A stretch of DNA of 43,689 bases, from the NCBI GenBank assembly GCA_001512495.1, contig LFRU01000082.1, forward strand, positions 7,049-50,737, read 5' to 3'. A model generated the notes under the pieces. The model had not been told where the DNA came from, did not search any database, and saw only the letters and a list, made by a program, of their open reading frames with translations. How positions within the stretch are numbered: position 1 is the stretch's first letter; each line of letters opens with the position of its first letter. Below are positions 37,802 to 43,689 of the stretch, piece after piece. Both the position numbers and the translations under genes were made by a program. Source of the stretch: Syntrophothermus sp. DTU052. GTDB lineage: Bacteria > Bacillota > Syntrophomonadia > Syntrophomonadales > DTU052.

Positions 37802-38098
37802 AATATGTTGAATGTGCTAACTATTTGCTTATTATGTTACATTATACCACTGCCGTGCCTGCAAGCAGGACCCCAAAATGCTGATGTTGCTATAAATTGG
37901 GTCAACACTTTACATACATTTAACACCACTGATTGACATGATTAGTTATAATAAAGTAATAGTCACTTGGCGTTACCGGGAATTGTTGCTTGCAATTGTG
38001 ATTAGCCTGATTAGTATGCTCAAATTGCAGGGATCCGCGGCCGGATTCTGTTTCATACTTGATGACCGGTATCAGATTTGACGAAAGGAGAGGAGTTA

Positions 38099-38665
38099 AT
38101 GGGAGAAGTTGTCTTGTCCGCCCACCGAGAATCTCGGGAATTGGTTAAAGCCATTGAATCGGCCAGCAGGACCAAGACCAGCCTCTGTTACCAGTGCGGA
38201 AAGTGCTCGGCAGGCTGTCCAGTCGGTTTTGCCATGGATTACACGCCGCGCCAGATAATCCGCCTGTTGCAGTTGGGCTTGATTAAAGAGGCTTTACAGG
38301 CGAAAAGCATATGGATCTGTGCGACCTGTGATACCTGCAGTACCCGGTGTCCACGAGGGGTGGATATCGCCTCCATCATGGATGCTCTGCGCCGGGAGGC
38401 CTTAAAGCAGGGCAAAGTAGTGAAAGAAGTATCGGCTTTTAATCAGGCTTTTCTTAACTCGGTGAAACGCTATGGTCGGAATCACGAGGCCTCATTGGTT
38501 CTTGAATACAACGCCCGCATCATGAACCCCTTCAAGAATGCGGAACAGGGACCGATGATGATGGCCAAAGGGAAGCTCAAGATCCTCCCCGAGTTCATCA
38601 AGGGCAAGGGCGAAGTCAGCCGCATCTTCGAAAAAGTCAAAGCAATGGGAGGTGATCACGAGTGA
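38099..38665 (+). CDS. hdrC: Heterodisulfide reductase subunit C-like iron-sulfur protein
   Basis: CYQCGKCSAGCPVGFAMDYTPRQIIRLLQLG, CATCDTCSTRCPRGVDIA. ATG 38099 after GGAGAGGAG; ORF track opens at 38078. Confidence 0.92.
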   Translation: MGEVVLSAHRESRELVKAIESASRTKTSLCYQCGKCSAGCPVGFAMDYTPRQIIRLLQLGLIKEALQAKSIWICATCDTCSTRCPRGVDIASIMDALRREALKQGKVVKEVSAFNQAFLNSVKRYGRNHEASLVLEYNARIMNPFKNAEQGPMMMAKGKLKILPEFIKGKGEVSRIFEKVKAMGGDHE

Positions 38666-39852
38666 GATTGGCATATTACCCCGGATGCTCCCTGGACGCC
38701 ACCGCCATTGAGTATGGGATGTCAACCCAGAAGATGGCCAAACTTCTGGATATCGATCTCTGGGAGATCCCCGACTGGAGCTGCTGCGGGGCCAGCTCTG
38801 CTCACCAGACCGACCACCTCCTGGCAATATCCCTGCCGGCGAGGAACCTGGCAATAGCTGAAAGAGAGGGCCTTGATGTTCTGGCTCCTTGCGCCGCCTG
38901 CTATAACCGCATGCGGGCTACGGAATATGAGGTAAGGGCCAGCGCCAAAACCCGCAGTCAGGTGGAGGAAGCCCTGGGTATACCCTATGAGGCCGCCCAG
39001 AGCACCATATCCGTCCTGGAACTCCTGGCTGAACGCTATGGACTGGATAACCTGGCGACCAGGGTTACCAACCCCTTGAAGGGCATGACACCGGCCTGCT
39101 ACTATGGGTGTCTTTTAGTGCGGCCGGTTGCGGTAACGGGGTTTGATGATCCCGAGGACCCCCAGAGTATGGACCGGATTATGAAGACACTGGGTGCTTC
39201 CCCAGTGGATTGGGCTTTTAAGACTGAGTGCTGTGGAGCGGGCCTGGGAGTGACCCAGACCGATATCTGCCTGGAAATGACCTACCAGATATTGAGGAAC
39301 GCCAAGGAAATGGGAGCGGATAGCATTGTTACGGCCTGCCCGGTCTGTCACCTTAACCTGGACATGCGGCAGAAGGCCATCGAGAAGAAGTACCAAACGG
39401 AATTCAACCTGCCGGTATTTTATGTGACGGAACTGGTGGCCATAGCCTGTGGTGCTGAGCCGCCCACGGTAGGTACTAACCGCCACTTTGTCGAGGCCAA
39501 CACCATCTTCCGCCAGCTTCCGGCCAAGGCCAAGGCCATGGAGGAAGCAGCGGCTCAAGCCGGCAAGAAGGGTAAAGGTGCGGCCAAGGCGAAGGCGGCC
39601 AAACCTGCAGCAGCAGAGAGTGAAAAACCCGCAACTGATGAGGATGCCGGCTTAATCCTGGCCCAGAAGGTTTATGATGATGAGAGCAAGGCGGCTCAAT
39701 TGGCGGAAATCCTGACGCAGGAACCGGCCCGGGCCGCCAAGCTAGCGGAGATACTGGAACAGGATAAAGGCAAGGCCCTTAAGGTGGCCGATGCCCTGCT
39801 GGCCAAAAAGGCCAAAGAGAAATCTGCGGGAGAGGAGGGGAATAAAGCATGA
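38662..39852 (+). CDS. hdrB: Heterodisulfide reductase subunit B-like protein with ~110-aa Ala/Lys/Glu-rich C-terminal extension
   Basis: LAYYPGCSLDATAIEYGMS, two CCG motifs (WSCCGASSAHQTDH, TECCGAGLGVTQTD), CPVCHLNLDMRQ. GTG start. Confidence 0.92.
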   Translation: MRLAYYPGCSLDATAIEYGMSTQKMAKLLDIDLWEIPDWSCCGASSAHQTDHLLAISLPARNLAIAEREGLDVLAPCAACYNRMRATEYEVRASAKTRSQVEEALGIPYEAAQSTISVLELLAERYGLDNLATRVTNPLKGMTPACYYGCLLVRPVAVTGFDDPEDPQSMDRIMKTLGASPVDWAFKTECCGAGLGVTQTDICLEMTYQILRNAKEMGADSIVTACPVCHLNLDMRQKAIEKKYQTEFNLPVFYVTELVAIACGAEPPTVGTNRHFVEANTIFRQLPAKAKAMEEAAAQAGKKGKGAAKAKAAKPAAAESEKPATDEDAGLILAQKVYDDESKAAQLAEILTQEPARAAKLAEILEQDKGKALKVADALLAKKAKEKSAGEEGNKA

Positions 39853-41828
39853 AACGAGTAGGAGTATTTGTTTGTGAATGCGGCACCAACATCGGGTCAG
39901 TAGTCGATGCACCCAAAGTGGCTGAAACAGCTTTGAACATGCCCGGGGTAGCGTTTGCTACCAGCTATAAATATATGTGTTCCGATCCGGGGCAGGACTT
40001 GATAATAAAGGCCGCCGAAGATCACAATCTGGAACAAGTGGTTGTGGCTTCTTGTTCGCCGCGTATGCATGAGAATACTTTCCGCAAGGCCATGTCCGCG
40101 GCTGGGTTGAACCCATACCAGTTTGAGATGGTCAATATCCGGGAACATGTTTCCTGGGTTCACAGCGACAAGGATGAGGCAACGCAAAAGGCTATTGACC
40201 TGGTGCGGATGGCGGTCGCCAAGGTTGTGCGCAACAAGCCGCTGCAGGTTTCTTATATACCGGTAACCAAGAAGGCTCTGGTAATCGGAGGCGGGATTGC
40301 CGGTATGCAGGCAGCGCTTGACATAGCGGAGACCGGACACCAGGTAATTTTGGTGGAGAGGGAGCCGACCATTGGGGGGAAAATGGCACAACTGGACAAG
40401 ACCTTCCCCACTATGGACTGCTCGGCCTGAATTAGCACCCCCAAGATGGTTGCTGTGGCACAGCATCCTAATATAAAACTCTATAGCTACTCGGAAGTGG
40501 TTGGGCTCTCCGGATACATCGGTAACTTTACCGTGACTATCAAGGAGAAAGCCAAATATGTTGATTACGATAAGTGTACCGGTTGCGGACTCTGTGAAAC
40601 CAAGTGTCCCAGCAGGGTCAAGAGCGAGTTTGATCTGGGGTTGGGAGAACGTCGTGCCATCTACAAAGCCTTCCCCCAGGCGGTACCCAATAAACCGGTA
40701 ATTGATGCTGATAACTGCCGTAAACTGCAGAGCGGAAAATGCGGGATCTGTGAAAAGCTCTGTCCTACAAAAGCCATCAACTTCGAGGACCAGGACAGGT
40801 TGGTTACCGAAGAGGTAGGGGCCATTGTTATGGCCACCGGCTATGACCTCTTTGAGTGGGAAAAGGCATACGGGGAGTACGGTTACGGCAAGTACCCCGA
40901 TGTTATCAGCGGGCTTCATTTTGAACGACTGGTCAACGCCTCCGGACCTACCGGCGGCAAGATTCAACGTCCTTCTGACGGGAAGATACCGCAGGCGGTG
41001 GCCTTCATCAAGTGTGTCGGCTCTCGTGATGATACCAAGGGCAAGAGCTACTGTTCACGGGCCTGCTGCATGTATACGGCCAAGCATGCCATGCAGGTGG
41101 TGGAGAAGATCCCCGACGGCGATGCCTATGTATTCTACATGGATGTACGTACAGCGGGGAAAGGGTACGAGGAATTCTACCAGCGTTCAGTCGAGCAGGG
41201 CGCCCAGTACATCAGGGGCCGGGTCAGTAAGATCTACCCGCGGGGCGACCGGCTGGTGGTCAAAAGCGAGGACACCCTTATGGGCAAACCGATTGAGGTA
41301 GAAGTGGATATGGTGGTCCTGGCCACTGCTATGGTTCCGGCAGCCGGTTCGGCTGAAGTGGCGAAACTGATAGGTTTTTCCACCGATAAGGATGGGTTCT
41401 TCCAGGAGGCTCACCCCAAACTGCAGCCGGTTGAAACTTTTACCGGCGGGGTTTACCTGGCGGGCTCATGCCAGGGACCCAAGGATATCCCGGATACCGT
41501 GGCTCAGGCCAGTGCCGCGGCGGTCAAGGTGGCGGCTTTGTTCTCCAAGGACAAACTGGCTACCGAGCCCATGATAGCTTATGTGGATGAAACCAAGTGC
41601 ACCGGGTGTGAATTCTGTGTACCGGTTTGTCCTTATCAAGCCATAAGCATGAAACCGGTCAAGTCAAGAGTTCATGGCCAGACGGTAGAGCGCCAGGTGG
41701 CAGAGGTTAACAAGGGCCTGTGTCAGGGCTGCGGCGCCTGTGTGGCGGCCTGTCGCCCCTGTGCTCTAAACCATAACGGTTTTACCAGTGATCAAATAGT
41801 ATCGGAGGTGGATGCACTGTGTCTGTAG
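39849..41828 (+). CDS. hdrA: Heterodisulfide reductase subunit A-like flavoprotein, predicted selenoprotein (in-frame UGA at 40428-40430)
   Basis: Two ORF-track pieces (39849-40430 and 40446-41828) share one frame. Junction MDCSA-UGA-ISTPKMV corresponds to HdrA (M/L)DCSxCILTPKMV. FAD motif [13 protein letters not shown] and several 4Fe-4S motifs. Confidence 0.93.
40451..40465 (+). promoter_or_regulatory. Candidate bacterial SECIS hairpin in hdrA
   Basis: TGCTGT-GGC-ACAGCA perfect 6-bp stem, apical loop GGC, loop 26 nt downstream of the TGA. Confidence 0.65.
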
Positions 41829-42256
41829 AGACAAGTAAAGGCTGGGAGCCCAAAATTGTGGCCTTTGCCTGCAACTGGTGTTCCTACGCCGGGGGCGATC
41901 TGGCTGGGCTTAACCGGCTGCAATATCCCTCCAATGTAAGGATTATCAGAGTGCCCTGTTCAGGGAGGATAGACCCCCAGTTTATCCTGCGGGCCTTTAT
42001 GATGGGAGCCGACGGTGTTCTGGTTTCCGGGTGACACCCCGGTGACTGCCACTATGGTAGTGGCAATTATTTCGCCCGCCGGAGGCACACATTGATGAAG
42101 AGTTTCCTGCAGTACCTGGGGATTGAACCCGAGCGCTACCAGTTGGCCTGGATTTCAGGTTCTGAGGGTCAGAAGTTCGCTGACGTCATGACCCATGTGG
42201 TAGCAGAGGTAAAAAAGGTTGGTCCCAACAGAAAGCTGAGGGAAGAGCATGAGTGA
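41819..42256 (+). CDS. mvhD: MvhD/FlxD-like iron-sulfur protein, predicted selenoprotein (in-frame UGA at 42032-42034)
   Basis: GTG start; [136 protein letters not shown]. MvhD family has GCHPGDCHY. Confidence 0.93.
42047..42065 (+). promoter_or_regulatory. Candidate bacterial SECIS hairpin in mvhD/flxD
   Basis: TGCCACTA-TGG-TAGTGGCA perfect 8-bp stem, loop TGG, loop about 20 nt downstream of the TGA. Confidence 0.75.
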
Positions 42257-43148
42257 TAATACAGCAAAAGCCAGAGAAATAGCGAAAAAACTCTTACAGG
42301 ATGGGACCGTGGCTATGGTCCTGGGGTGGGAGAAAGGCGACGAGCCTTATGTCAGCGCTCCTACTGTGATAACAGACGCCGCCGATGTGGATCGGCTGGT
42401 GCTTGATGAGTACTGTATTCATGACCTGGCGGCTTTACTGCCGGACTACCGCGACCGCAGCGAAAAGATTGCGGTATTTGCCAAGGGCTGCGATTCTCGT
42501 GGTATTGTCAGGCTGATTCAAGACCGGGTGATGCCCAGGGACCGTCTTTATATCATCGGGATTAACTGTCCCGGGATGAAGGATCCCAACGAATTCTTCC
42601 GGGCGGCCTCGGGACTGAGTAAGACCAAGCCGGCCGAAAAAGCGGCCAAGTGCTTGAGCTGTCAGTACCCTAATCCGGTAATCTATGATGAGATAATCGG
42701 GGAACCCCAGCAGCCCGGGGATGATAAGCGTTTTGCAGAAGTAGACAAGATCGAAAGCATGTCGGCTGATGAGCGTTATGATTTTTTCATCAAGGAGTTC
42801 AGCAGGTGTATCAGGTGCTATGCCTGCCGTAATGCCTGTGTGGCCTGCAACTGCCGGACCTGCATTTTCGACGAGACCAAACCCCAATGGGTAAGAAGGT
42901 CCACCGATCCGGTCAATAACCTGCTCTACCAAATTGTGCGGACCATGCATGTGGCTGGACGGTGTGTCGAATGCGGCGAGTGCGAAAGGGCATGCCCGGT
43001 GGGCATACCTCTGATGCTCTTGAACCGTAAACTGATAAAAGAAGTGGACCAACTCTTCGGGCCCTATCAAGCCGGGTTGAGCCTGGACGATGATGCGATT
43101 CCTCCGCTCAGCCGCTACCGGGTTGAAGATCCCGACGAGTTTATGTAG
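42249..43148 (+). CDS. 4Fe-4S dicluster iron-sulfur protein, probable Flx-type (FlxB/FlxC-like) electron-transfer subunit
   Basis: CIRCYACRNACVACNCRTC and CVECGECERACPVGIPLMLLNRKLI; sits directly after mvhD/flxD. Confidence 0.78.
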   Translation: MSDNTAKAREIAKKLLQDGTVAMVLGWEKGDEPYVSAPTVITDAADVDRLVLDEYCIHDLAALLPDYRDRSEKIAVFAKGCDSRGIVRLIQDRVMPRDRLYIIGINCPGMKDPNEFFRAASGLSKTKPAEKAAKCLSCQYPNPVIYDEIIGEPQQPGDDKRFAEVDKIESMSADERYDFFIKEFSRCIRCYACRNACVACNCRTCIFDETKPQWVRRSTDPVNNLLYQIVRTMHVAGRCVECGECERACPVGIPLMLLNRKLIKEVDQLFGPYQAGLSLDDDAIPPLSRYRVEDPDEFM

Positions 43149-43159
43149 GGGGTGAGGCT

Positions 43160-43689
43160 GTGAAAGTACTACCATCCGATAAGATTAAAGAGGCCTTGAA
43201 TATCCTGGCTCGGGAGGCCAAGGTTTACGCCCCCATGGTGCAAGGGGATGTCAGCGGTTATTTCAGGTGGACCGATAACCCGATTGGGGAGTTGGCCCTG
43301 GACATCCTGAACACCTATATGTCTCCCAAGAATATAGTAATGCCGCAGACTGAAGAGATGTACAAATTTCTCGCCCCGGGCAAAGAGGCCCAGGTGACCG
43401 ATATCGCTATTGCTGAAGGCCCAAGGGTCATCTTTGGCATCAGGAGCTGTGATCTGCAGGCCCTGCATGCACTGGACCTGGTGTTTTTAACCAAAGGATA
43501 TGAAGACGAGTTCTATAAGGCCCGCCGCCAGGAACTGGCGGTTATAGCCCGGGCCTGCTATCAACCTGGTCCGGCCTGTTTCTGCGAGTCCATGGGTGTG
43601 GATCGTCTTAATCCCCAGGCCGATGTGGTTATGCACGACCTGGGTCGGCAGGATTTTGCCTGGGAGCCCAAGACTCCCAAGGGTGAGGA
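43160..43689 (+). CDS. AsrA/hydrogenase-beta-like iron-sulfur protein, Flx-type subunit (3' end outside window)
   Basis: Open frame from GTG 43160: VKVLPSDKIKEALNILAREAKVYAPMVQGDVSGYFRWTDNP...IIFGIRSCDLQALHALDLVFL; RSCD motif typical of AsrA/HydB-like proteins. Confidence 0.72.
   Translation, partial: MKVLPSDKIKEALNILAREAKVYAPMVQGDVSGYFRWTDNPIGELALDILNTYMSPKNIVMPQTEEMYKFLAPGKEAQVTDIAIAEGPRVIFGIRSCDLQALHALDLVFLTKGYEDEFYKARRQELAVIARACYQPGPACFCESMGVDRLNPQADVVMHDLGRQDFAWEPKTPKGE

Follow-up and report, generated by a model that had tools for sequence, protein, structure and literature searches.

A heterodisulfide reductase subunit A gene with an in-frame UGA, predicted to encode a selenoprotein, in the flx-hdr operon of Syntrophothermus sp. 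DTU052

The DNA analyzed here, the window, is a stretch of 43,689 nucleotides from Syntrophothermus sp. DTU052 (assembly GCA_001512495.1, contig LFRU01000082.1). It harbours a hdrA gene, coding for heterodisulfide reductase subunit A (39849-41828, forward strand), that starts with ATG at 39849, ends with TAG at 41826-41828 and contains a single internal stop codon, the TGA at 40428-40430. This raises the question whether the TGA ends the protein, marks a damaged or misread gene, or is read as selenocysteine (Sec), in which case ordinary gene calling would split a selenoprotein gene. The preliminary description had claimed a full-length HdrA with one in-frame TGA, and this was borne out. With TGA translated as Sec a single ORF of 659 codons is obtained, of which residues 3-656 match the HdrA of PDB entry 5odc end to end (chain residues 5-648, 757 bits). 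Full-length matches were found to the HdrA chains of 5odc, 8rvu and 7bkb, and the product has the full HdrA architecture of an N-terminal domain, an FAD/TrxR domain, and inserted and C-terminal ferredoxin domains. The HdrA2 model of NCBIfam (NF040770) scores 837 bits over residues 3-657 and its curated cut-off of 1100 bits is not reached, because this model of 777 positions takes in a fused MvhD domain; its positions 642-774 match the separate next gene, mvhD/flxD, with 180 bits. The hdrA product is not classed here as an HdrA2 in the strict sense.

The TGA codon (40428-40430, forward strand) specifies residue 194 and aligns with Cys197 of the 5odc HdrA, the invariant second Cys of the DCSxC motif. 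Relatives were drawn from 80 contig loci and from 101 genomes including that of the host, 66 of which gave a strong HdrA match. At the UGA site, 40 distinct homologous sequences, almost all from Bacillota, were found to have TGA and 59 distinct sequences a Cys codon (TGC or TGT), in agreement with the earlier claim that the UGA replaces a conserved Cys. Nearly every full-length HdrA match in the host's order has exactly one TGA; the match in one genome (G055) has none. We considered whether the TGA could stem from faulty sequencing or assembly, or from a recent nonsense mutation that left a pseudogene in two halves, as a point error would indeed appear as one lone stop within an open frame. 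The same TGA is present, however, in 40 distinct sequences that come from independent assemblies, among which those of the isolates Syntrophomonas wolfei and Thermosyntropha lipolytica, and this explanation, refuted by the orthologues, has a practically negligible probability. Selection on the gene also speaks against it. Compared with copies from the same genus, dN/dS was approximately 0.1 both before and after the TGA (0.030/0.277 upstream and 0.027/0.352 downstream, the latter leaving out locus L113, in which an indel breaks the register), ratios that indicate equally strong purifying selection on both sides. In another genome of the genus (G001:C23:3628-5532) the HdrA match is split into residues 1-204 and 339-659 and the part in between is absent, which is probably an assembly problem.

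Downstream of the TGA lies a 6-bp stem-loop, TGCTGT-GGC-ACAGCA, at 40451-40465. The addition of GG/CC after a 1-nt mismatch extends it to 40448-40468 (forward strand; GG-U-UGCUGU-GGC-ACAGCA-U-CC, loop at 40457-40459). The TGA is separated from the 6-bp stem by 20 nt and from the loop by 26 nt. Published criteria for a bacterial SECIS comprise a loop of 3-9 nt with G in its first two positions, a stem of 4-16 bp, a UGA-loop distance of 16-37 nt and a minimum free energy of -7.5 kcal/mol or lower (PMC13188914). The hairpin lies within all of these, with its 3-nt loop GGC, its stem of 6 bp plus GG/CC, its distance of 26 nt and a folding energy of -8.5 kcal/mol for the 21-nt core and -10.3 kcal/mol for 46 nt. 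Compared with shuffled sequences the 46-nt stretch folds no better (z -0.15) and the core moderately better (z -1.78). Folding energy by itself is weak evidence for a SECIS in hdrA, and the comparative evidence carries the case. A scan of the region with Rfam gave one weak match below threshold and none for the hdrA hairpin.

In the comparison of homologues all six stem pairs were found in the same register in 37 of the 40 Sec sequences and in none of the 59 Cys sequences (Fisher p 5e-24, which is no true probability as the sequences are related). The claim in the preliminary description that the perfect hairpin is a bacterial SECIS is thereby upheld. Two of the Sec sequences without the full stem miss the outermost pair only, and the third is a distant sequence from Chloroflexota (L089). 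The latter, a Dehalococcoidia MAG, harbours two nearby HdrA genes (at 1097 and 4992), one with Sec and one with Cys; the hairpin of its Sec-HdrA, TGGCCTC-GGT-GAGGTCA, is placed differently. Sec in this HdrA appears to have had a separate origin. Within the common hairpin the loop-closing pair varies between U-A, U-G and C-G, with nine cells showing a change on both sides. The other stem pairs hardly vary, six of them never, and are silent on covariation, so that compensatory change is seen at one pair only.

Synonymous sites gave a further indication. In the 41 Sec genes compared, codons +8 (GCT) and +11 (CAG) never change and codon +7 (GTT) hardly does, despite the availability of usable synonyms. 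The five-codon windows +4 to +8 and +7 to +11 after the TGA ranked first and third of 260 in synonymous conservation, with values of 0.95 and 0.90 compared to a mean of 0.58 for the hdrA gene, and no such peak was observed at the hairpin position in the Cys homologues. These data bear on the idea that translation stops at the UGA and restarts at the ATG at 40446 to yield two separate subunits. That ATG, 15 nt past the TGA, opens an ORF (40446-41828), and split hdrA genes are known from other bacteria (PMC1794560). However, no Shine-Dalgarno sequence is found ahead of it (AATTAGCACCCCCAAG), unlike the start of hdrA at 39849, which is preceded by GAGAGGAGGGG. The break would furthermore halve the FAD-binding domain and remove the conserved Cys, and a restart leaves the hairpin, the synonymous constraint and the Cys in the homologues unexplained; we regard it as highly improbable. 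Because the TGA and the hairpin occur together, synonymous sites are constrained and dN/dS is low on both sides, recoding of the UGA is the only reasonable reading. The hdrA gene thus read very probably encodes a selenoprotein, with the UGA predicted to specify Sec at residue 194.

The preliminary description had proposed to search the genome for selA, selB, selC and selD, and all were found, on contig C87. A compact selenium locus (G000:C87:24000-35500) harbours selA, selB, tRNA-Sec, selD and yedF, with unrelated genes in between. Profile scores were 579 bits for SelA, 380 for SelB, 388 for SelD and 217 for YedF, and the tRNA-Sec (UCA), scoring 72.7 bits, was also called by ARAGORN. The selD gene has an in-frame TGA of its own (VRASGU), and three fdhA homologues, found on contigs C3, C36 and C99 (L144-L146) by searches for individual protein families, have one in-frame TGA each and likely code for further selenoproteins. 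Judged by all the sequence criteria, the host uses Sec. The presence of tRNA-Sec(UCA) and SelB also argues against a genome-wide reassignment of UGA to another amino acid, for example Trp or Gly. The hdrA frame is open if TGA is a sense codon of any kind, but the homologues have Cys at the site rather than Trp or Gly, and reassignment is refuted by the neighbouring genes hdrC and mvhD, which stop at TGA (ending at 38665 and 42259); its probability is vanishingly small. A last alternative accepts the machinery and supposes that decoding of the UGA yields mainly Cys or relies on near-cognate read-through, or that Sec insertion is so inefficient that a truncated protein dominates. Even where the machinery is complete, UGA recoding remains partial, at 30-40% in vivo according to PMC4513850. 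The conserved SECIS and the synonymous constraint nevertheless imply selection for dedicated recoding, and we consider this alternative very unlikely.

For recoding of hdrA by Sec the following course is proposed. The ribosome would reach the UGA at 40428-40430, where SelB, docked on the hairpin (40448-40468), would bring Sec-tRNA(Sec), made by SelA with selenophosphate from SelD. Sec would enter at residue 194 and translation would continue to 41828. Both the actual insertion of Sec in HdrA and its efficiency we infer from the sequence.

The hdrA gene is part of an operon, hdrCBA-flxDCBA, that it shares with mvhD/flxD, its genes within the window lying on the forward strand. Upstream are hdrC (38078-38665; TIGR03290, E 1.4e-25, below the curated cut-off) and hdrB (38662-39852; TIGR03288, E 2e-55, below cut-off, and PF02754), and hdrB overlaps both hdrC and hdrA by 4 nt. 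Downstream, mvhD/flxD of the FlpD family (41819-42259; PF02662, E 7e-55) is a second predicted selenoprotein gene, its ORF being complete with TGA read as Sec. Its Sec codon (42032-42034) lies in the motif SGUHPGDCHY; this site has TGA in Sec relatives and TGC or TGT in others. A SECIS-like hairpin follows at 42047-42065, a perfect 8-bp inverted repeat (UGCCACUA-UGG-UAGUGGCA) with loop UGG, a UGA-loop distance of 20 nt and a core folding energy of -11.1 kcal/mol (z -2.97). The Syntrophomonas motif reads GUHPGECHY instead of GDCHY and has Sec too (11 loci read directly). The preliminary description was silent on this second Sec codon. Next come a flxC-like gene for an iron-sulfur protein (42249-43148; Fer4_17 and related ferredoxin domains, and operon position) and a flxB-like gene for a sulfhydrogenase/AsrA-like beta subunit (43160-43687; NF040829, E 6e-21) that runs past the end of the window. 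Beyond it the contig holds a 4Fe-4S dicluster stretch and then a NAD-binding flxA-like gene (L141 7709-9498). The flxB-like frame is broken by ambiguous bases at L141 8200-8250, probably an assembly gap. The gene content expected for FlxABCD-HdrABC is present: hdrCBA, a MvhD-like flxD, iron-sulfur flxC and flxB, and a NAD/FAD-binding flxA. No DsrC-type partner was found in the host genome.

A tree of 99 HdrA sequences, made by a quick method, requires four changes of the Sec/Cys label, at least three of which are forced by well-supported branches. The sequences of the host's order are all Sec in this tree, and relatives from Lachnospiraceae, Coriobacteriia and some Peptococcaceae are Cys; the host HdrA shares ~74% identity with that of Syntrophomonas. 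Three loci from Desulforudis and Peptococcaceae (L048, L050 and L072) have Cys in HdrA, yet Sec (TGA) in mvhD, and Sec has therefore been exchanged independently in the two partners. Sec in both HdrA and MvhD/FlxD comes close to a fixed trait of the syntrophic Bacillota order to which the host belongs.

What Sec might do in HdrA can be considered from known structures. In the structure from M. wolfeii the N-terminal [4Fe-4S] cluster of each HdrA, which lies on the proposed route to ferredoxin, has its ligand set completed by Cys197 of the partner HdrA (PMC9012536). By homology Sec194 would replace Cys197 as trans-dimer ligand of this cluster; if true, Sec would have the unusual role of providing a selenolate ligand to a bifurcation-pathway cluster. 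In FlxABCD-HdrABC, NADH oxidation has been proposed to be coupled to the reduction of ferredoxin and of a disulfide (Ramos et al. 2015, as cited in PMC6687939). HdrA would be the flavin-bifurcating core of such a NADH-linked complex, joined to it through the selenoprotein MvhD/FlxD. The physiological direction of the Flx-Hdr complex is likewise one that we infer. It may tentatively be speculated, with doubt prevailing, that the Flx-Hdr of the host's order employs its two Sec residues, the trans-dimer ligand in HdrA and the one in MvhD/FlxD, either for tuning the low-potential branch to ferredoxin or for gating the passage of electrons from subunit to subunit in syntrophs without DsrC.

Several known systems resemble that of the host. 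The Sec-HdrA and VhuD of the methanogens Methanocaldococcus, Methanococcus and Methanopyrus belong to the same families and have Sec in a CxxU motif (PMC13188914). Their SECIS is of another, archaeal, type and lies outside the coding region, whereas that of the host is bacterial and lies inside it; furthermore, the methanogens have CoM-S-S-CoB as acceptor and a hydrogenase or formate dehydrogenase as partner, where the host has Flx partners. The FlxABCD-HdrABC system has its hdrCBA-flxD-flxC-flxB-flxA content and domains in common with the host (Ramos et al. 2015, cited in PMC6687939). The Desulfovibrio Flx-Hdr has been proposed to use DsrC, unlike that of the host; Syntrophomonas BUT1, like the host, has the same flx-hdr cluster without DsrC (PMC6687939). 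In Desulfococcus multivorans, of a different phylum, hdrA and mvhD are both annotated with UGA and SECIS, as in the host (PMC5109826). Closest are the bacterial Sec-HdrA proteins, which Zhang et al. (2006, PMC1794560) reported together with Sec-FrhD in S. wolfei, Carboxydothermus hydrogenoformans, Desulfotomaculum reducens, Moorella thermoacetica, Syntrophobacter fumaroxidans and further bacteria. These share with the host the family, the CxxU site, the SECIS just past the UGA and the Sec-FrhD/MvhD alongside. The novelty implied in the preliminary description for a bacterial Sec-HdrA finds no support: the kind has been known since 2006, in close relatives of the host including Syntrophomonas wolfei, and is not a new one. 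An Hdr is among the proteins that proteomics has revealed in S. wolfei (PMC4324140), and S. wolfei subsp. methylbutyratica (L051) has the same hdrA TGA and hairpin as the host. Compared to the bacteria of Zhang et al. (2006) the host represents an uncultured genus in the same order as Syntrophomonas wolfei, and its hdrA adds one more gene to a selenoprotein family that is already known, a well-supported but ordinary case.
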